Shown: piece by piece, positions 45,211-53,444 of the stretch
Layout of the letters: each line of letters begins with the position of its first letter
Numbering within the stretch: position 1 is the first letter of the stretch
Source: Sulfuricurvum sp.
GTDB taxonomy: Bacteria > Campylobacterota > Campylobacteria > Campylobacterales > Sulfurimonadaceae
Reading direction: 5' to 3'
NCBI GenBank assembly: GCA_030693335.1
Contig: JAUYAU010000014.1
Coordinates: forward strand, 1-64,000
Length of the DNA: 64,000 bases
Made by a program: the position numbers and the translations under genes
The notes under the pieces: model-generated
What the model saw: only the letters and a program-made list of their open reading frames with translations
Databases searched by the model: none
Told to the model about the DNA's origin: nothing

Positions 45211-46272
45211 CTAATAGCCTTCAACTCTTAGCGTGATTTCATCGGCAAGGAGAAAATTGGGATTAAAATAGCGTTCATTACGAAATTCTAACAAGCCACC
45301 ATCAAGAAGCATTAGAGCTTGTGCGCGTTGCGGTTTTGACAGGAGTGTTTGGTCAACACCGACGCAGCTTCGAAATCCTAAGAAAAATTTTTCGTTTAAG
45401 AGTTCTGCCTCATTAAGATGTTCTTCTTTTATTGACACTGGCGCATTAATATAGGCTTCGATATCGGGAGTAGGATATAAACGAGTAGCACCTAAAAATC
45501 CAACCGCTCCCGCACCCAATCCAATGTAGGGTTTATGCTCCCAATAACCAATATTGTGTTTGGATCGGTATTTGCCAAAATTGGAAATTTCATACTGCTC
45601 AAATCCCTTCGCAGCTATTTCATCAAACAACCATTGGGTGAGATCGAGTTGTTCGTTTGCCATTTCGGGTAATTTTTCAAATTCCGTCTTTTCTTCAATT
45701 GTGAGGGAGTAGAGGCTTATGTGATCGATTGGGAGTTGGAACGCTTGATCTATATCGCTGCGTAACAGCTCTTTGGTATCGTTTTGAACGCCGTAAATGA
45801 GATCAAGAGAGAGATGCTCATATCCGATGAGTGAAGCATTTCGGATAGCTTCAAGAGCATGTTGCGTATTATGTGCACGTCCGAGAGTTTTGAGTTTTTC
45901 ATCGTTGAAGCTCTGAACTCCAAAACTGATACGGTTTACCCCAAGCGTTTTCATACCCTCAAGCCATTCATAGGTTGCACTGTTTGGATTGGCTTCCGAT
46001 GTGATTTCGGCACCTATGTGTAAATAGGGACGGATACGGTCAAATATCGGAATATAAAGTTCGGGAGCAACAGTGGAAGGAGTTCCCCCGCCGATAAAAA
46101 CGGTTTCGATTAGATTCTTGGCAGTGACGTCAAAACGTTTGAGTTCAGTTTCGAGTTGAACAGCCAGCGCATCCATGTAGCGTTCACGCTGTGAAAACTT
46201 GTCAACATAAGAATTAAAGGCACAATAGGAGCACTTACTATCGCAAAAAGGGATATGAATGTATAAAAGCAT
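45211..46272 (-). CDS. hemW: HemW-like radical SAM heme chaperone
   Basis: 'LLYIHIPFCDSKCSYCAFNS', 'TVFIGGGTPS', 'RISFGVQSFNDEKLKTLGRAHN'. Confidence 0.94.
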   Translation of the reverse strand: MLLYIHIPFCDSKCSYCAFNSYVDKFSQRERYMDALAVQLETELKRFDVTAKNLIETVFIGGGTPSTVAPELYIPIFDRIRPYLHIGAEITSEANPNSATYEWLEGMKTLGVNRISFGVQSFNDEKLKTLGRAHNTQHALEAIRNASLIGYEHLSLDLIYGVQNDTKELLRSDIDQAFQLPIDHISLYSLTIEEKTEFEKLPEMANEQLDLTQWLFDEIAAKGFEQYEISNFGKYRSKHNIGYWEHKPYIGLGAGAVGFLGATRLYPTPDIEAYINAPVSIKEEHLNEAELLNEKFFLGFRSCVGVDQTLLSKPQRAQALMLLDGGLLEFRNERYFNPNFLLADEITLRVEGY

Positions 46273-46341
46273 ATCGCATTATAGCAGTGTTGATGGCTTT
46301 TATTGAGTGGATAATCGTCCACACAACAAGTAGAGATGACA

Positions 46342-46446
46342 ATGAGCAATACTTTTGATTTTTACAACCAAACACCATTAAGCATCTTTAAATTTGTAAG
46401 GGTTATTTTTAGTAGAAAGTCAGCGCAAGCGAGAGGAGAGCCATAG
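46342..46446 (+). pseudogene. Possible truncated gene remnant (34 aa) at the edge of the Mrp island
   Basis: ORF MSNTFDFYNQTPLSIFKFVRVIFSRKSAQARGEP; first 24-26 aa look protein-like, tail runs antisense into the mrpD-like 3' end. Confidence 0.3.
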
Positions 46447-47620
46447 GGTAAAGAATGTAAAGCGCGAAGTTGCTCTTTGGTATTTGTGCTGGTATCTCTT
46501 TTGCGATCCAAGCGAGTTTGAGCATCAACAGTGCAGTGACAAAGATGCTAGGAGAGAGGAGAAGGGTGATAAGTGGGGCGCTCTTTAGGGATGCAAGAAG
46601 CATCTCTTTTGCCATGCCTCCACTGCTAAACGCCACCCCAACAAGACTTAGAGCAAAGAGAGAGCCTAAGAGGATGAAATGTTTAGTGAGTCCACAGTGC
46701 ATCACCTCACCTGCGAGAAAAAAGAGGGAAGACTTGTTGATGGCATGGTGGATTGAGAAAAAGATGACCACACCAAGCAGTGTCTCCCAAAGTGTAGGTT
46801 CCAGAAGTCCGTAGCCCAGTAAAATAAAGAGATAGCCCATTTGTGAGATACTTGAGTAGGCGAGTATCTCTTTGAGTTTACTCTTTAAAAGTCCGAAGAG
46901 TCCGAAGTAGATACCAGCAACTCCAAGCGAGCATAAAGCAATCCCGCCAAGATTCTCTACTGTATCCCCAAAGGGAAGTACACGAATGAGCCCTAAAATT
47001 CCTGCTTTTAGCATAACTCCGGAGAGAGTGGCACTGGCAGCTGCGGGGGCATTCGCGTGTGCAGGTGGGAGCCAGAAGTGGAGCAAAAATAATCCTCCTT
47101 TGATGCCAAAACCAAAAATAAAGAGTCCTAGCGCAAGGGGTGGCATAGACGTCTTGAAGAGTTCAAACGTAAAGCCACCATAGTGACTCACGCTTATAAT
47201 TATGGCAATAAAAAGAGCGACTTCACCAAGAATAGCATATTTAATGTAGAGAAATGCCGCCTCTTTTTCCCCTTGCGTTTGTGTGTGGATGACAAGTCCA
47301 AATGCGGCAAGTGACATAAGCGAGAAGAAGAGGTAGAAACCTAGAATATCATGGCTTATGATGAGCCCGTAATTGCCTGCAAAGGTGAGGATAAACCAAA
47401 ACCAGTACCTTTTTATCTGCGTGCGTATCGTGAAGTGGCTATAGATGGCACTCATCAGCCAGACAAAAGAGCTAAAGAATGCAAAGCTCTTTGTGATAAA
47501 ATCGATTTTAAAGTCAAGTCCAAACAAAAACCATTCAACACGAAAGGCAGTACCAATATCTACAAACAGTGAAAAAAGAAATCCAAGAGTCACCAGAGTC
47601 AAAGCTGTTGCGAAATTCAT
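46409..47620 (-). CDS. MrpD/ND5-like proton-conducting membrane subunit (third copy)
   Basis: 'AHANAPAAASATLSGVMLKAGILGLIRVLPFG', 'LAYSSISQMGYLFILLGYG'. Confidence 0.88.
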   Translation of the reverse strand: MNFATALTLVTLGFLFSLFVDIGTAFRVEWFLFGLDFKIDFITKSFAFFSSFVWLMSAIYSHFTIRTQIKRYWFWFILTFAGNYGLIISHDILGFYLFFSLMSLAAFGLVIHTQTQGEKEAAFLYIKYAILGEVALFIAIIISVSHYGGFTFELFKTSMPPLALGLFIFGFGIKGGLFLLHFWLPPAHANAPAAASATLSGVMLKAGILGLIRVLPFGDTVENLGGIALCSLGVAGIYFGLFGLLKSKLKEILAYSSISQMGYLFILLGYGLLEPTLWETLLGVVIFFSIHHAINKSSLFFLAGEVMHCGLTKHFILLGSLFALSLVGVAFSSGGMAKEMLLASLKSAPLITLLLSPSIFVTALLMLKLAWIAKEIPAQIPKSNFALYILYPMALLSLALTFY

Positions 47621-49104
47621 CTTCTATACTCCAGCTCTACAATCTTCTCTGCCAAGCCTAGAGGACTCCAGTCACTCAGTGCAAAGACCCCAAGCAGCAG
47701 TGATAAAAGAGCACCTACAAGCGCAGGAAGGAGTAAAAAAAGATTGGCACCTTTTTTCTCTTGTTGTTGGGTATGTAGCTCTTTTGGAGCTAAAAACCAG
47801 ATACGATACAGCAGAGGTAAAAAGTACATGGCGTTTAAGAGGGAGGAGAGGGCGAGCACTCCAAGCACCCATAGTAGCTCATTTTCGTAGGCTCCCAAGG
47901 CAAGATAGTATTTTGAGATGAAGCCTGCAGTGGGAGGAATGCCAATCATCCCAAGAGCTGCAATGCTAAAGGCAAGCGCTCCAAAGGGCATCACTTTTCC
48001 CAAGCCATCAAGTTGGTCAATTTTTTTGATGTTATGAAGTTTTGCAAAGGCACCTGCGCAAAAAAAGAGGGTAATTTTCATCACCCCTTGGTGGACAAGA
48101 TGAACCATAGCACCAATAGTACCTAAAGGTCCGAAAAGGGCAATGCCAAGGAGGATGTAAGAGACCTGTGAGACGGTTGAGTAGGCGAGGAGCTTTTTTA
48201 TGTCGAGTTGACGCAGTGCCATGATACTTCCAAAAAGAATGGTCACCACTGCCACACCTAAGAGAATATCTAAGAGCCCTAAAGAGCGTGAAAGCTCCAC
48301 GCCATAGACCTCATACACAACGCGTATGAGACCAAAGGCACCCGCTTTGACTACAGCAACTGCATGAAGTAATGCTGAGACAGGAGCAGGTGCCGCCATG
48401 GCTGAGGGTAGCCAGTGATGCAGAGGAAAGATAGCCGCCTTGACGCCAATACCGATAAGCAAAAGGACGAAGATCGCTTGTAAAAAAAGAGGTGAAGCAT
48501 CGCTAAGTACCCCTAGATAGCCACCACTTTGAAACTCCACATCCCCACTAACACTTTGTAAAACTACAAGGGCAACAAGAAAGAAGAGCCCACCGATAAT
48601 GGTATGTGCCAGATAGATGATGGTGGCTTTTTTTGCCTCTACCGTCTGTGTATGAAGGATGAGAGCAAATGTCGTGAGTGTCAAAAACTCATAAAAGATA
48701 AAAAAAGTAAAAAGATTTCCTGCCACACTGAGTCCTACAGTTGCCGTGACACACAAAGAAAAGAAGCCAAAAAAACGGTTTTGATTTTTGGTATCTTTAA
48801 AATAGGCGATGGCGTAGATAGTGGTAAACAACCACAAAATAGAGGAGAGTGTAGCAAAGAGCATGGAGAGGGTATCGACTTTGAGCACAATAGAGCTATG
48901 CGGTGTAAAGGCAAAACTCAAAGAGTAGACCTCGTCATGAGCGAGTCCATGGAAAAGCAAGAGGACAAAAAATATTTTTGAAAATATCCCAGAGAGATTT
49001 GTGATGTTTCGTGTGAGCACATACCTGCTTGGGGTCAAAAAAATGATGAGAGCTGGAAGTGTTGAGCTTGCCAAGAGGAGAAGTAAAATAGTAGAATTTT
49101 GCAT
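47617..49104 (-). CDS. MrpD/ND5-like proton-conducting membrane subunit (second copy)
   Basis: 'HHWLPSAMAAPAPVSALLHAVAVVKAGAFGLIRVVYEVYG', 'LLAYSTVSQVSYILLGIALFG'. Confidence 0.92.
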   Translation of the reverse strand: MQNSTILLLLLASSTLPALIIFLTPSRYVLTRNITNLSGIFSKIFFVLLLFHGLAHDEVYSLSFAFTPHSSIVLKVDTLSMLFATLSSILWLFTTIYAIAYFKDTKNQNRFFGFFSLCVTATVGLSVAGNLFTFFIFYEFLTLTTFALILHTQTVEAKKATIIYLAHTIIGGLFFLVALVVLQSVSGDVEFQSGGYLGVLSDASPLFLQAIFVLLLIGIGVKAAIFPLHHWLPSAMAAPAPVSALLHAVAVVKAGAFGLIRVVYEVYGVELSRSLGLLDILLGVAVVTILFGSIMALRQLDIKKLLAYSTVSQVSYILLGIALFGPLGTIGAMVHLVHQGVMKITLFFCAGAFAKLHNIKKIDQLDGLGKVMPFGALAFSIAALGMIGIPPTAGFISKYYLALGAYENELLWVLGVLALSSLLNAMYFLPLLYRIWFLAPKELHTQQQEKKGANLFLLLPALVGALLSLLLGVFALSDWSPLGLAEKIVELEYRR

Positions 49105-49108
49105 TATC

Positions 49109-50530
49109 TTAGCCCATAAAAGCTATAATGGAGTTACTAAAAAATGCTAAAAAAACGGACAAAAAGCTCAAAGTAAATGCAGTCCATTCTAGTGTGGTAT
49201 GAGATTTTTCTCTCCTTAGGAGGTGTCCCTCTTCCAGCGGATGCTCTAAAAAGAGAATTAAGAGTTTAAAAAGATACGCAGCGCTTAGAATCCCACCGCC
49301 TATAATAGCAAAAAGAAAAAACCACGACTCACTTAGATAGGCACTCTGAAGGTAGTACCACTTCGAAACAAAACCAAGCGATGGAGGTAGACCGATAAGA
49401 GAAACAGCGCTCAAGGCAATGGCAAAAACACTCACAGGAGTAATACTTGCGTAGCCTTGAAGAGCAGATATCTCTTTTGTCTGAGCTATGTGGACGACAA
49501 CACCAGCAGCAAGGAAAAATCCCGACTTTGCAAGGGTGTGAGAAAAGAGTGCAAATGCCATTGCATTAAATGCCATAGATGGGTCAGTATGTTCATCTAT
49601 AAATGCAAAAATAAGTAAAAGATAGCCTACTTGAGAGATGGTAGAATAGGCGATAAGAAGTTTTAGGTCACTGCTCAAATATGCTTTGATGCCTCCATAA
49701 AAAATAGCACCAACACCAAGAAATGCTAAAAAATAACTCAGCTCATATTCAAATATAAAAAGAGTCGCAGCAAAGAGATACATCAGATAAAAAGTCGCCT
49801 TAATAACGAGTGCAGACAGCAGCGCTGAGACGGGAGTAGGAGCATTGGCATGGGCATTTGCAAGCCAAAAAGAGAGAGGAAAAACAGCAGTTTTGAGCAA
49901 AAATGCCACAACCATAAAGCCAAATGCTACAAGTGTGGGGAGCTCTTCTTGAATAACTGGAATAAGTGCACTGATGTTTAAGAGCCCATATTTTGCATAG
50001 ATGATAACAACACCTAAAAGATAGAAGCCTGAAGCCACAAGCGTGCTAAAGAGATAGACAAGAGAGGCATGAAGGGCTTTTGGTGACTTTTGAAGTGCTG
50101 ATAGTCCAACGGCGCAAAGACCGATGATCTCTAAGCCCACATAGATGGTAAAGATATCTTGTGAGAGATAAACAACAACAAGTCCAAGTGCCAAAAAAGT
50201 GCTCAAGGGGTAAAAGAGCGCTCTTTGACTCTCTTGGAGTGAAAAGCGTGCATAGATGAAAGTAAGAAGCATCACAAAGGCACTCACTCCCAAGATACTG
50301 CTTCCAAAGCGAAGTGGTGCAAATGCTATACCAAGTGGTGCTTGCCATCCTCCAAAGTGGTATGCCCAAGGGGACTTTGTAGCAACGCCGTACAGTAATA
50401 AGAGAGACTCGGAAAAAAAGATAAGACCAAACGCAATGCCAAAAAAAGCGGCTCTTTTAGAAAACAAAAATCCAAGTATTGCAAAAAGAGCGGGGGTGAT
50501 AATGAGCGCAGGGATGAGGTTGTTAAACAT
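49109..50530 (-). CDS. MrpD/ND5-like proton-conducting membrane subunit (first copy)
   Basis: 'FWLANAHANAPTPVSALLSALVIKATFYLMYLFA', 'LIAYSTISQVGYLLLIFAFI'; start ATG 50530. Confidence 0.92.
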   Translation of the reverse strand: MFNNLIPALIITPALFAILGFLFSKRAAFFGIAFGLIFFSESLLLLYGVATKSPWAYHFGGWQAPLGIAFAPLRFGSSILGVSAFVMLLTFIYARFSLQESQRALFYPLSTFLALGLVVVYLSQDIFTIYVGLEIIGLCAVGLSALQKSPKALHASLVYLFSTLVASGFYLLGVVIIYAKYGLLNISALIPVIQEELPTLVAFGFMVVAFLLKTAVFPLSFWLANAHANAPTPVSALLSALVIKATFYLMYLFAATLFIFEYELSYFLAFLGVGAIFYGGIKAYLSSDLKLLIAYSTISQVGYLLLIFAFIDEHTDPSMAFNAMAFALFSHTLAKSGFFLAAGVVVHIAQTKEISALQGYASITPVSVFAIALSAVSLIGLPPSLGFVSKWYYLQSAYLSESWFFLFAIIGGGILSAAYLFKLLILFLEHPLEEGHLLRREKSHTTLEWTAFTLSFLSVFLAFFSNSIIAFMG

Positions 50531-50804
50531 TATCGCTCTCTTTGATGCTCTCTTTTGCATAAGCACGGATGAGCATCATAGCAAAGGCGCTTGCACCAAG
50601 GGTGACGACAAGTCCTGTAAGTACTAAAGCAATTACAATAGGGTCTGCTATGTCTTCTCTCGTAGTTGTAGAGACAAAAATCAAAAAGATACCACTGGTA
50701 AAAACATTCAGCGAGATGAGCTTTCTCAAAAATTCTTTGTGTACAATGACGCCTAAAAGTCCTAAAACAAAAAGTGCGACTCCTGTAATGATGAAGAGCA
50801 TCAA
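50523..50804 (-). CDS. mrpC: MrpC/NuoK-like subunit
   Basis: 93 aa, three TMs, 'LISLNVFTSGIFLIFVSTT...DPIVIALVLTGLVVTLGASAFAMMLI'. Confidence 0.88.
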   Translation of the reverse strand: MMLFIITGVALFVLGLLGVIVHKEFLRKLISLNVFTSGIFLIFVSTTTREDIADPIVIALVLTGLVVTLGASAFAMMLIRAYAKESIKESDNV

Positions 50805-51463
50805 GGCTTTACCCTTTGCACTGCGTTTATGAAGTAAGCACTCAAAATAGCCCCAAGTGAAAGCATGAGCACAGACTCAATGGAGATAATGTAAAAAGAT
50901 GCGATATAGTCTCTGTACTCCAAAAAAGAGCCAAAAAAGAGGGAAATCATACCCACGCACACAAAGTAAAAGAGTCCACTGACATAGAGAAATCTTAGTA
51001 TCAACTCTTTTGGCACAAAAAAAGAGCGAGGCTTTACGAGGCGTAGGATGATGATTCCACCCGCTAAAAGTGCCGATGCACTAAACGCTCCTCCACTTTG
51101 GTAGCTTCCGCTGTAGAGTATATAAAATGCATAGAGTGCTATGAGCGGAAAAAGTATGGCTACAAAGGTGTTTGTGATAGTGTTTTCAAAACTCAGCGGC
51201 GTGTAGCGAAAATTTGGCTCAAGAGCATGGATGGCTATGAGTGAGAGAAGAATGACACCCACCTCTAGGAGTGTATCAAGGGCGCGAAAATTGAGTAAAA
51301 CCGCTGTGACTTCATGTGTCACTCCGCTATGAGGCATTGCTTCAAAAAGTTTTGTGTGCATAGAGGAGTCAAGAGTATTTATGTTTGTCAGAATAAAACT
51401 TAGCCCTACAAAGAGCCAAAATGCAAGAAAATACAGTAGCGAGTGAAATGTTTTGTTACGCAT
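50801..51463 (-). CDS. mrpB: Fused MbhE-like + MrpB (MnhB) subunit
   Basis: 'EVTAVLLNFRALDTLLEVGVILLSLIAI' (MbhE-like) followed by 'LFPLIALYAFYILYSGSYQSGGAFSASALLAGGIIIL' (MnhB-like). Confidence 0.83.
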   Translation of the reverse strand: MRNKTFHSLLYFLAFWLFVGLSFILTNINTLDSSMHTKLFEAMPHSGVTHEVTAVLLNFRALDTLLEVGVILLSLIAIHALEPNFRYTPLSFENTITNTFVAILFPLIALYAFYILYSGSYQSGGAFSASALLAGGIIILRLVKPRSFFVPKELILRFLYVSGLFYFVCVGMISLFFGSFLEYRDYIASFYIISIESVLMLSLGAILSAYFINAVQRVKP

Positions 51464-51710
51464 CCTCTCTCCCTATCTTTTTTAAGAAGGTGATAGTATC
51501 AAGCAGAAGTGCTCCTGTAATTCCTGCACCAAGCGCAATCTCCGCGAGTGCCAAATCAAATGCACCAAGACGAACCCATGCAAGTGCGAGTATCATACCA
51601 AAAACAATGAAGTGAATGATGGCGTTAAAGTGATCTTTGGTAAAAGTGATTTTAAAACCGAGCCAAAGTAATAACACAAGCAAGAGCGTATCAATGAGCA
51701 GCATTATCAT
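51456..51710 (-). CDS. MbhD/DUF4040-like subunit (corresponds to MrpA C-terminal segment)
   Basis: 'FNAIIHFIVFGMILALAWVRLGAFDLALAEIALGAGITGALLLDTI'. Confidence 0.8.
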   Translation of the reverse strand: MIMLLIDTLLLVLLLWLGFKITFTKDHFNAIIHFIVFGMILALAWVRLGAFDLALAEIALGAGITGALLLDTITFLKKIGREDA

Positions 51711-52026
51711 CTCTCCTGGTATATGGTTCTTCGCCAATTTCTAGTGAGGCAGAAGAGAGAATGTAGCTTAGAGCTGATGAACTCAGTAGTGCCAAGAGCC
51801 AGATAAAGAAAATCTTCAAAGAGATCAAAAGAGAAGTACTGTGAAGCATCATACCAAATGCAATGAAACCAAGTCCAAGATTATCTACTTTTGAGAGGGC
51901 ATGCAGACGGGTGTAGAGATCAAAAAAACGAAAAATTCCAACAGTGCCTACCACAAAAAAGAGAGTGCCGATAACCAAGAAGAGATTTGCAACTATCTCG
52001 AGAGCTTCACGCATCCGGGCCTCCAT
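51691..52026 (-). CDS. mrpG: MrpG (MnhG)-like subunit
   Basis: 'LVIGTLFFVVGTVGIFRFFDLYTRLHALSKVDNLGLGFIAFGMML'; start 52026 or 52014. Confidence 0.87.
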   Translation of the reverse strand: MEARMREALEIVANLFLVIGTLFFVVGTVGIFRFFDLYTRLHALSKVDNLGLGFIAFGMMLHSTSLLISLKIFFIWLLALLSSSALSYILSSASLEIGEEPYTRRDDNAAH

Positions 52027-52291
52027 TGTCTCTCGTGTCTCTTTTGTAGCGCAGTCGTTTTGCAAAGAGTATGGCAGTAACGGAGCCCAGAAGTACAAAC
52101 ATAAGTGCGACATCCAAAAGGGCACCTTCTTGTGAGATGCCATAGAGCAATAAAAGCAGACCAACCCCTGTAGTGCTTAAAAGAAGAGAGACAAGCATTT
52201 TAGCGCTTTGTGAACGTTTTTGTAGGATAAATATTGCTGCAATGATAAGGTTGAACGCCAAAATGGAGGCTAAAAATAGGTGAAGAGTCAT
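52007..52291 (-). CDS. mrpF: MrpF-like subunit
   Basis: Three TMs; 'LLLYGISQEGALLDVALMFVLLGSVTAILFAKRL'; position between E and G. Confidence 0.8.
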   Translation of the reverse strand: MTLHLFLASILAFNLIIAAIFILQKRSQSAKMLVSLLLSTTGVGLLLLLYGISQEGALLDVALMFVLLGSVTAILFAKRLRYKRDTRDNGGPDA

Positions 52292-52755
52292 ACTCGGCAC
52301 TTCTCTTCAAACGCATCAAATACATACCCCTCAAATCGCTCGATAAGTGCAAGCTCAAAGAGTGTTTTATCTAAGATATGCAGCAGAAGTTCCCCCTCTT
52401 TTTCTTGTATGCTAAGCGTCCCTGGCATCAAAGAGTATATGCTTGCAAGCAGTGAGATGCTAAATGCACTATGCACCCTTAAATGGTGGGTGTGGAGAAA
52501 AGGCTCAACTACGAGCTTTGGTTTGAGTGCTACAAATGCCACTTGAAAGCCACCTTTGAGAGAGTAGAATAAAAACCAAAAAGAGAGTCTCAAAATTCCA
52601 AAAAAGGAAATTCTACTATAGTTAAGTGTGAAGATATACGGAGTGATGAAACTTAATAAGAAGATAAACGCAAGAGGAAAAATTTCAAGAACACCATTAC
52701 TTATAATGAGCCATAAAAAAAGATAGAGTGCAAAAAGTTTGAGATTGGCAACCAT
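52288..52755 (-). CDS. mrpE: MrpE (MnhE)-like subunit
   Basis: 'YSLKGGFQVAFVALKPKLVVEPFLHTHHLRVHSAFSISLLASIYSLMPGTLSIQ'. Confidence 0.87.
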   Translation of the reverse strand: MVANLKLFALYLFLWLIISNGVLEIFPLAFIFLLSFITPYIFTLNYSRISFFGILRLSFWFLFYSLKGGFQVAFVALKPKLVVEPFLHTHHLRVHSAFSISLLASIYSLMPGTLSIQEKEGELLLHILDKTLFELALIERFEGYVFDAFEEKCRV

Positions 52756-52777
52756 ACTATAAACTCTTTTTTTGTTG

Positions 52778-52783
52778 ATTATA
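52778..52783 (-). promoter_or_regulatory. Putative -10 (TATAAT) of the Mrp operon
   Basis: TATAAT on minus strand about 23 bp upstream of mrpE ATG, weak TTAAAC -35 with 17-bp spacing. Confidence 0.45.
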
Positions 52784-52973
52784 GCATCTTTTAAGCGACT
52801 GTTTAAGATTCTATTTCAGTGTTAAAATCAAATGAAATGAATTCGCATCATTAAAGGATACCCATTTTTTTACTGTGTATGCATTCTCACTCAGGGTAAC
52901 GGGAACTAGAAATGTATCAATTATACTTTTTTTAATGAGCAATAGCTTACAATTATAGGAAAAAAGATAGTGA

Positions 52974-53444
52974 ATGACTCAACAAAAGTTTTATCGTCCC
53001 AATGTCGCCGCTATCATTGTCTCCAGCGCATACCCGCAAGTCAAAGAAATTTTCATTGCAGAACGATGTGATTTAGCAGGAGTATGGCAGTTTCCGCAAG
53101 GGGGAATCGATGAGGGTGAAACGGTAGAAGAAGCCCTTTTTCGTGAACTCAAAGAAGAAATTGGAACCAATAAAGTGGAAATCGTAGCCGAATACCCTGA
53201 GTGGATATCGTACGATTTTCCTACGCATGTAGCGGCTAAAATGGCACCTTTTGCAGGACAAAAACAACGTTATTATTTGGTCCGTCTCAAAGAAAATGCT
53301 AAAATAAGTCTGGATACTAAGCATCCGGAATTTAAGCAGCATGAATTTGTGAATTTGGAAGAGCTTAATGGAAAAATCGCCCATTTTAAAAAACCGATTT
53401 ATGAAATCGTCATTTCACATTTTAAAGCCCAGGGGTATCTGTAA
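52974..53444 (+). CDS. rppH: RNA pyrophosphohydrolase (Nudix)
   Basis: 'YRPNVAAIIVSSAYP', Nudix box 'GGIDEGETVEEALFRELKEEIG'. Confidence 0.94.
   Translation: MTQQKFYRPNVAAIIVSSAYPQVKEIFIAERCDLAGVWQFPQGGIDEGETVEEALFRELKEEIGTNKVEIVAEYPEWISYDFPTHVAAKMAPFAGQKQRYYLVRLKENAKISLDTKHPEFKQHEFVNLEELNGKIAHFKKPIYEIVISHFKAQGYL

Follow-up and report, generated by a model that had tools for sequence, protein, structure and literature searches.

A Group 3 Mrp operon with three antiporter-like subunits in a Sulfuricurvum genome

A 64,000-nucleotide stretch of Sulfuricurvum sp. DNA (assembly GCA_030693335.1, contig JAUYAU010000014.1, positions 1 to 64,000; the window) carries nine intact minus-strand open reading frames (ORFs) between 46409 and 52755, which an original prediction made from the letters alone had described as an Mrp/Mbh-like operon without a canonical MrpA. 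Both points were borne out by the intact ORFs, their Pfam order and the absence of MrpA from the whole genome, the window included. On its gene content the operon is a Group 3 Mrp, one of a class of sodium/proton antiporters that is known but has been little studied, and its product would very probably be a stand-alone cation/H+ antiporter driven by the proton motive force, with two antiporter-like subunits (D2 and D1) at its core and a third (D3) as an altered extra subunit.

Class assignment and the nine genes

Group 3 Mrp systems are defined by a missing mrpA and the presence of mrpD only, sometimes in multiple copies (PMC8415708). The window holds mrpE, F, G, B and C together with MbhD and MbhE domains, and three mrpD-type genes in a genome that is 99.99% complete and devoid of mrpA; the earlier description as a non-canonical Mrp antiporter is right, as the operon fits this published definition. 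Pfam and NCBIfam agree on the nine identities (MrpE, MrpF, MrpG, MbhD, an MbhE-MrpB fusion, MrpC and three Proton_antipo_M proteins). The hidden Markov model (HMM) search of each ORF that had been proposed matched the MNHE, PhaG_MnhG_YufB, MbhD, MbhE, MnhB and Proton_antipo_M domains, the MbhE match in the fusion (1e-5) lying slightly below the Pfam MbhE cut-off. MbhD is 85-93 aa long according to the start chosen, which corrects the 85 aa given before, and MrpC is alignable to MbsG, Bacillus (Bp) MrpC and NuoK. Seven of the eight junctions are overlaps of 4-44 bp and the remaining one is a 4-bp gap (+13, +44, +35, +8, +4, +8, -4 and +4 bp in gene order, overlaps being positive); eight ordered, mostly overlapping junctions cannot be chance. 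Promoter and terminator scans of the operon yielded nothing beyond shuffled controls.

Other classes were compared with the same gene set. The genome matches include no MrpA with an ND5 part fused to MbhD/MbhE, as expected of Group 1 and 2 systems, and the window has L39 in place of MrpF Asp35 and S92 in place of MrpG Pro86 (Anoxybacillus, Af, numbering). No hydrogenase-like redox subunits stand beside the module within the nine-gene insert, as they would in the membrane-bound hydrogenase (MBH) and membrane-bound sulfane reductase (MBS) systems. Transmembrane helix (TM) 12 carries Lys in D1, D2 and D3 rather than the Glu of NuoM, and the clades of all three are separate from the Nuo proteins of the complex I membrane arm. 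DabA (DUF2309) is likewise missing beside the operon; dabB and dabA are found on contig C8. An MrpA hidden just outside the operon, which had been named as a possible objection, was ruled out by the genome-wide Proton_antipo_M matches: these comprise D1, D2, D3, one NuoL/M/N set (contig C18) and the dabB on C8, and MbhD and MnhB each occur once in the genome. The C8 cluster itself (L038:6854-12062, G000 C8) consists of dabB, a gene for a 242-aa membrane protein and a dabA-like gene (958 aa, assigned by sequence inspection rather than HMM), and a SulP-like transporter gene is oriented divergently to it; in the DabB of this cluster, TM5 carries Gln and TM6 carries Asp.

Three antiporter-like lineages and their key residues

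By their sequences, D1, D2 and D3 are three distinct lineages. In the maximum-likelihood tree of 83 antiporter-like proteins built along the lines proposed earlier, in which some deep branches are weak and DabB forms a long row, D2 and D3 each formed one clade at 100/100, as did D1 except for one protein of another subtype. D1 was placed beside MrpD (support 88/74; 72/67 in a thinned tree), and none of the three fell inside the MrpA/NuoL clade. Constraining D3 to group with MrpA was rejected by the approximately unbiased (AU) test (p-AU 0.021); the same constraint on D2 was not firmly rejected (p-AU 0.062), and this grouping was not recovered either. D2 gave the best score against MrpA, and a TM8 His is present in 89 of 90 D2 sequences (here and below, residue counts come from related sequences, which are not to be taken as independent events). 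Of the reference proteins, only MrpA, NuoL, DabB and an unassigned one that groups with MrpA have His in this column; the residue corresponds to His248 of Bacillus MrpA, mutation of which abolishes salt tolerance (PMC9568556). Because of this residue signature, we infer that D2 fills the role of the N-terminal half of MrpA. The expectation that the ND5-like part of MrpA would be one of the three D proteins is thereby answered in part: D2 has the histidine of MrpA and NuoL but is a clade of its own. TM5 Glu and TM7 Lys are present in essentially every D1 and D2 sequence, TM5 Glu in all of those that have a letter in this column.

As for D3, TM5 is non-acidic in all 77 readable sequences (Ala, Ser, Thr or other; Glu, regarded as essential across the protein family, in 0/77) and TM6 is acidic in all 77 (Glu in 67, Asp in 10); in the window these positions are S100 and E133, accompanied by K174, K205 and K338. 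Within the reference set TM5 carries Glu in NuoL, NuoM, NuoN, MrpA, MrpD and MbhH, and a TM6 Asp was seen only in NuoL, identified as Asp178 through the RxGD motif, and in the single DabB examined, where TM5 has Gln. The distance between K229 and D178 of NuoL is 3.3 Å (PMC13324432), and the Mrp TM5 acid lies near the TM12 Lys of the neighbouring subunit (PMC7419157). D3 thus probably keeps an inner Lys/acid pair and loses this TM5 acid. That a missing TM5 Glu marks every three-D operon was ruled out by G427 and G372, in which all three subunits retain this residue, and the swap is therefore a property of this D3 clade. The operons of these two genomes (L195:4381-11786 and L196:4996-12447) are of a different three-D type with an MbhD-MbhE-B fusion, and that of L195 has a gene of ~120 aa between D2 and D3.

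The window D3 is also short, at 403 aa against ~500-560 in relatives; its C-terminus ends ~110 aa before that of a 53%-identical orthologue, and the N-terminal helix (TM1) is missing. A frameshift truncation with a downstream remnant was ruled out by inspection, as no remnant reads on in the 137 bp to hemW. In an AlphaFold model (predicted local distance difference test score, pLDDT, 92.7) TM7 and TM12 are broken, the five residues named above lie within or beside the expected helices, and the best match in the PDB is MrpD of an Mrp complex; according to this model, D3 has an antiporter-subunit fold.

In the cation module, MbhD Glu62 (89-aa translation) aligns with Glu69 of MBH MbhD, the homologue of the MrpA Na+-site Glu, and R60 and E67 of the MbhE part retain the FRxxDTxxE motif, corresponding to MrpA R773/E780 by motif spacing (cf. 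PMC5703873). The window MrpF has A33 for Asp29 (Af)/Asp32 (Bp) and L39 for Asp35 (Af)/Asp38 (Bp). The latter column is never acidic in Group 3 (53 Gln and 15 Leu among 72 sequences); the first Asp is kept in 67/72 and is lost in the window, G146 and G274, with G449 retaining it. The change is thus found together with a full-length D3 in G146 and G274 and is therefore an inherited trait. MrpG has Ser at the Pro86 (Af)/Pro81 (Bp) column, where Group 3 sequences have mostly Ala and Pro in only 4/76. In Group 1, MrpF Asp35 and MrpG Pro86 have been reported to be invariant or essential, and single loss of either MrpF aspartate inactivated the complex (PMC7419157, PMC5703873). With both aspartates missing, the cation path of the window system must therefore differ, or its activity may be low. 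A limited literature search found no earlier description of the D3 swap or of the MrpF and MrpG losses; for the swap it returned papers on Mrp and complex I only.

Proposed function and its alternatives

The complex would move Na+ (or K+) out of the cell against incoming H+, at the expense of the proton motive force. The cation module (E, F, G, MbhD, MbhE-B and C) and the three antiporter-like subunits are intact, and the central Lys residues are kept. D1 would take the place of MrpD, adjoining the cation module, D2 would replace the N-terminal half of MrpA and admit protons via its TM8 histidine, and D3 would sit at the far end. Unable to form the usual TM5-Glu/TM7-Lys pair, D3 would probably pair its TM6 acid with Lys174, a predicted contact like Asp178-Lys229 of NuoL; its link to the neighbouring subunit would therefore be weakened or changed. 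Several points weigh against this proposal: the kinship of D2 to MrpA is unsupported by the tree, both MrpF aspartates are missing, and the order of the subunits in the complex is one that we infer.

The same absence of the MrpF acids and the MrpG Pro, which belong to the proposed Na+ entry path, would also suit a working Mrp of another ion or direction, exchanging K+ for H+ or taking up Na+ while extruding H+ in the way proposed for the stand-alone Mrp of Pyrococcus furiosus, a Group 3 system believed to be an H+ exporter at low pH (PMC8415708). Since MbhD and MbhE retain the residues for Na+ loading and exit and the Group 3 operon of a cyanobacterium encodes a Na+/H+ antiporter (PMC5703873), we consider this unlikely, if worth bearing in mind. 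A decaying transferred operon with poor or absent antiport would account for a D3 shortened at both ends, relative to its longer relatives, and for the Ala and Leu at the two MrpF positions. That explanation appears improbable, as the nine frames are open and overlapping, the key residues of D1, D2, MbhD and MbhE are retained, the MrpF change is shared with operons whose D3 is full-length, and the structural model of D3 is confident.

The original prediction had also offered an ion-translocating module coupled to another complex, here one docked on a redox enzyme, a hydrogenase or a carbon-uptake protein. In MBH and MBS this module is found together with redox subunits, the presence of three antiporter-like subunits is reminiscent of complex I, and the TM5/TM6 pattern of D3 is like that of DabB, the partner of DabA. 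Yet the insert consists of the nine operon genes only, the single homologue of the 49-kDa redox subunit lies ~6-12 kb from the one NuoL/M/N set on C18, and DabA already has its own DabB, so that no unpaired redox partner was found in the insert or the genome; nor was a redox gene seen among the operon genes of profiled relatives, whose flanks are not fully annotated. Such docking is therefore unsupported and very improbable. A free antiporter, as proposed above, remains our preferred interpretation.

Related operons, insertion site and implications

Scanning the collection with D2 retrieved 80 loci of named organisms, mainly Gammaproteobacteria, but also Paracoccus, Aeromicrobium, Myxococcus and Desulfonatronum. 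Profile searches showed the order E-F-G-(MbhD)-(MbhE-B)-C-D1-D2-D3 in most loci long enough to judge, with mrpE relocated to the operon end in Aeromicrobium and Desulfonatronum. In the Group 3 operons of Marinobacter, Thioalkalivibrio, Halochromatium, Paracoccus and others, gene order and D3 residue swap are as in the window and the subunits are orthologous (D2 49-58% identical); the window differs from these systems in lacking the first MrpF Asp too, in a D3 shorter at both ends, and in a separate MbhD gene, which in many of the other operons is fused to MbhE-B. Some of these loci showed further features. A universal-stress-protein-like gene, absent from the window, lies between mrpE and mrpF in one branch (L040:11893-12885, L042:12049-13047, L062:5185-6153, L072:949-1932); Halochromatium salexigens (L052:11480-15021) has a tandem pair of D3-type genes and apparently four antiporter-like subunits per operon; and in L079:10945-16449 and L081:2023-7897 a second Mrp-type set, apparently containing MrpA, adjoins the Group 3 operon.

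Among published systems, the operons of Microbacterium sp. TS-1 (mrpFGBCDDAE, with irregular order, a duplicated mrpD and, as in Aeromicrobium, E last; PMC5703873) and of Ca. Nitrospira alkalitolerans look like the same kind as that of the window; the latter is likened by its description, seven mrpA-G genes plus two, in which the two NuoM/NuoL-like genes after mrpD were taken to be additional mrpA/mrpD-like genes (PMC7784846). The cluster of Aphanothece halophytica, a proven Na+/H+ antiporter, has two mrpD and another, irregular order (mrpCD1D2EFGAB; PMC5703873). The functional stand-alone Mrp of P. furiosus likewise has MbhD/E-type subunits and no MrpA (PMC8415708), but a single MrpD and a fused MbhD-MbhE. 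Group 1/2 systems (Bacillus, Anoxybacillus, Dietzia) share the small subunits, the MrpD counterpart of D1 and, in MrpA, the TM8 His of D2; the window differs in having no MrpA gene, in a third subunit without TM5 Glu, and in lacking MrpF Asp35 and MrpG Pro86. Because published Group 3 systems and many relatives share it, the layout is of a known kind, and the earlier caveat that it might be standard in relatives half applies: it is standard in many Gammaproteobacteria.

In the window's phylum the nine-gene layout is rare. D2 was detected at E <= 1e-70 in 5/397 phylum genomes (the window's own, G274, G449 and two of another subtype), a D3 orthologue in none of 40 other same-genus genomes searched and in four other genomes of the family, and a literature search for Mrp in Sulfurimonas/Sulfurovum found no paper. 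hemW and rppH are adjacent in 23 same-genus loci, with 60-73 bp between the two genes in 20 cases, and alignment to these empty sites stops at window positions 46283 and 52919; the operon is therefore a 6635-bp insertion that brought no other genes along (Table 1). From this clean empty site and the sporadic presence it follows that the operon was gained horizontally, and on this sequence comparison it reached the genome recently, by transfer into the hemW-rppH gap. Foreign base composition was dropped as a mark of transfer, since the G+C content inside the operon (0.38-0.45) matches that around it (0.38-0.44). The hemW side also holds queA, tatC and a tatA/B-like gene, and the NUDIX side holds genes for aspartokinase, HobA (a Campylobacterota replication protein), a holB-like gene, folP and, after it and ~4 kb from the operon, a CPA-type Na+/H+ exchanger gene (PF00999; 56925-58109, +). 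The closest same-genus genome, G130, has a RelB/RelE-like toxin-antitoxin pair (79 + 86 aa ORFs; L164:1551-2368) in the same gap, which may for this reason be an insertion hot spot.

Table 1. Genes of the operon, the insertion and its flanks
Feature	Position	Strand	Details
mrpE, first gene	52288..52755	-	155 aa; Pfam MNHE 1.2e-20; PGT motif retained
mrpF	52007..52300	-	97 aa; Pfam MrpF_PhaF 8.2e-6; without both MrpF aspartates
mrpG	51691..52050	-	~119 aa, start uncertain; Pfam PhaG_MnhG_YufB 7.3e-20
mbhD-like (DUF4040; MrpA C-terminal piece)	51456..51725	-	Pfam MbhD 4.1e-16
mbhE-mrpB fusion	50801..51463	-	220 aa; Pfam MnhB 4.8e-12, MbhE 1e-5
mrpC	50523..50804	-	93 aa; Pfam Oxidored_q2 1.4e-12
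D1, MrpD-like subunit	49109..50530	-	473 aa; Pfam Proton_antipo_M 3e-55; E134/K213/K244/K390
D2, MrpA/NuoL-type TM8 histidine	47617..49104	-	495 aa; Pfam Proton_antipo_M 2e-58; E139/K222/H247/K253/K398
D3, third antiporter-like subunit	46409..47620	-	403 aa; Pfam Proton_antipo_M 3.5e-31
Whole insertion	46284..52918		6635 bp, between hemW and rppH-like gene
hemW (radical-SAM hemW-like)	45211-46272	-	flank of insertion
rppH-like NUDIX gene	52974-53444	+	other flank of insertion

The layout itself is already known; the comparison of the D lineages and the residue patterns are the new detail, separating three lineages that annotation lumps as 'subunit D' and making a vaguely defined class testable. 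In models of Mrp and complex I neighbouring pump subunits are coupled at the TM5-Glu/TM7-Lys pair, and in those of Mrp, MrpF Asp35 and MrpG Pro86 are essential for sodium entry. We tentatively suggest, as a possibility short of an even chance, that this Group 3 layout is a distinct coupling design, in which D3 has traded its TM5 Glu for a TM6 acid in a NuoL-like inner pair and cations enter without that MrpF Asp and the MrpG Pro, the lineage of the window having lost the remaining MrpF Asp too. A widespread natural antiporter with a D3 lacking TM5 Glu, and with the other residues lost or altered, would be a natural experiment on which of them are needed. It also bears on whether the H+/Na+ ratio, proposed to be 2:1 for two pump subunits, is altered by a third; D3 may contribute a third proton per cycle, cap the complex or tune it.

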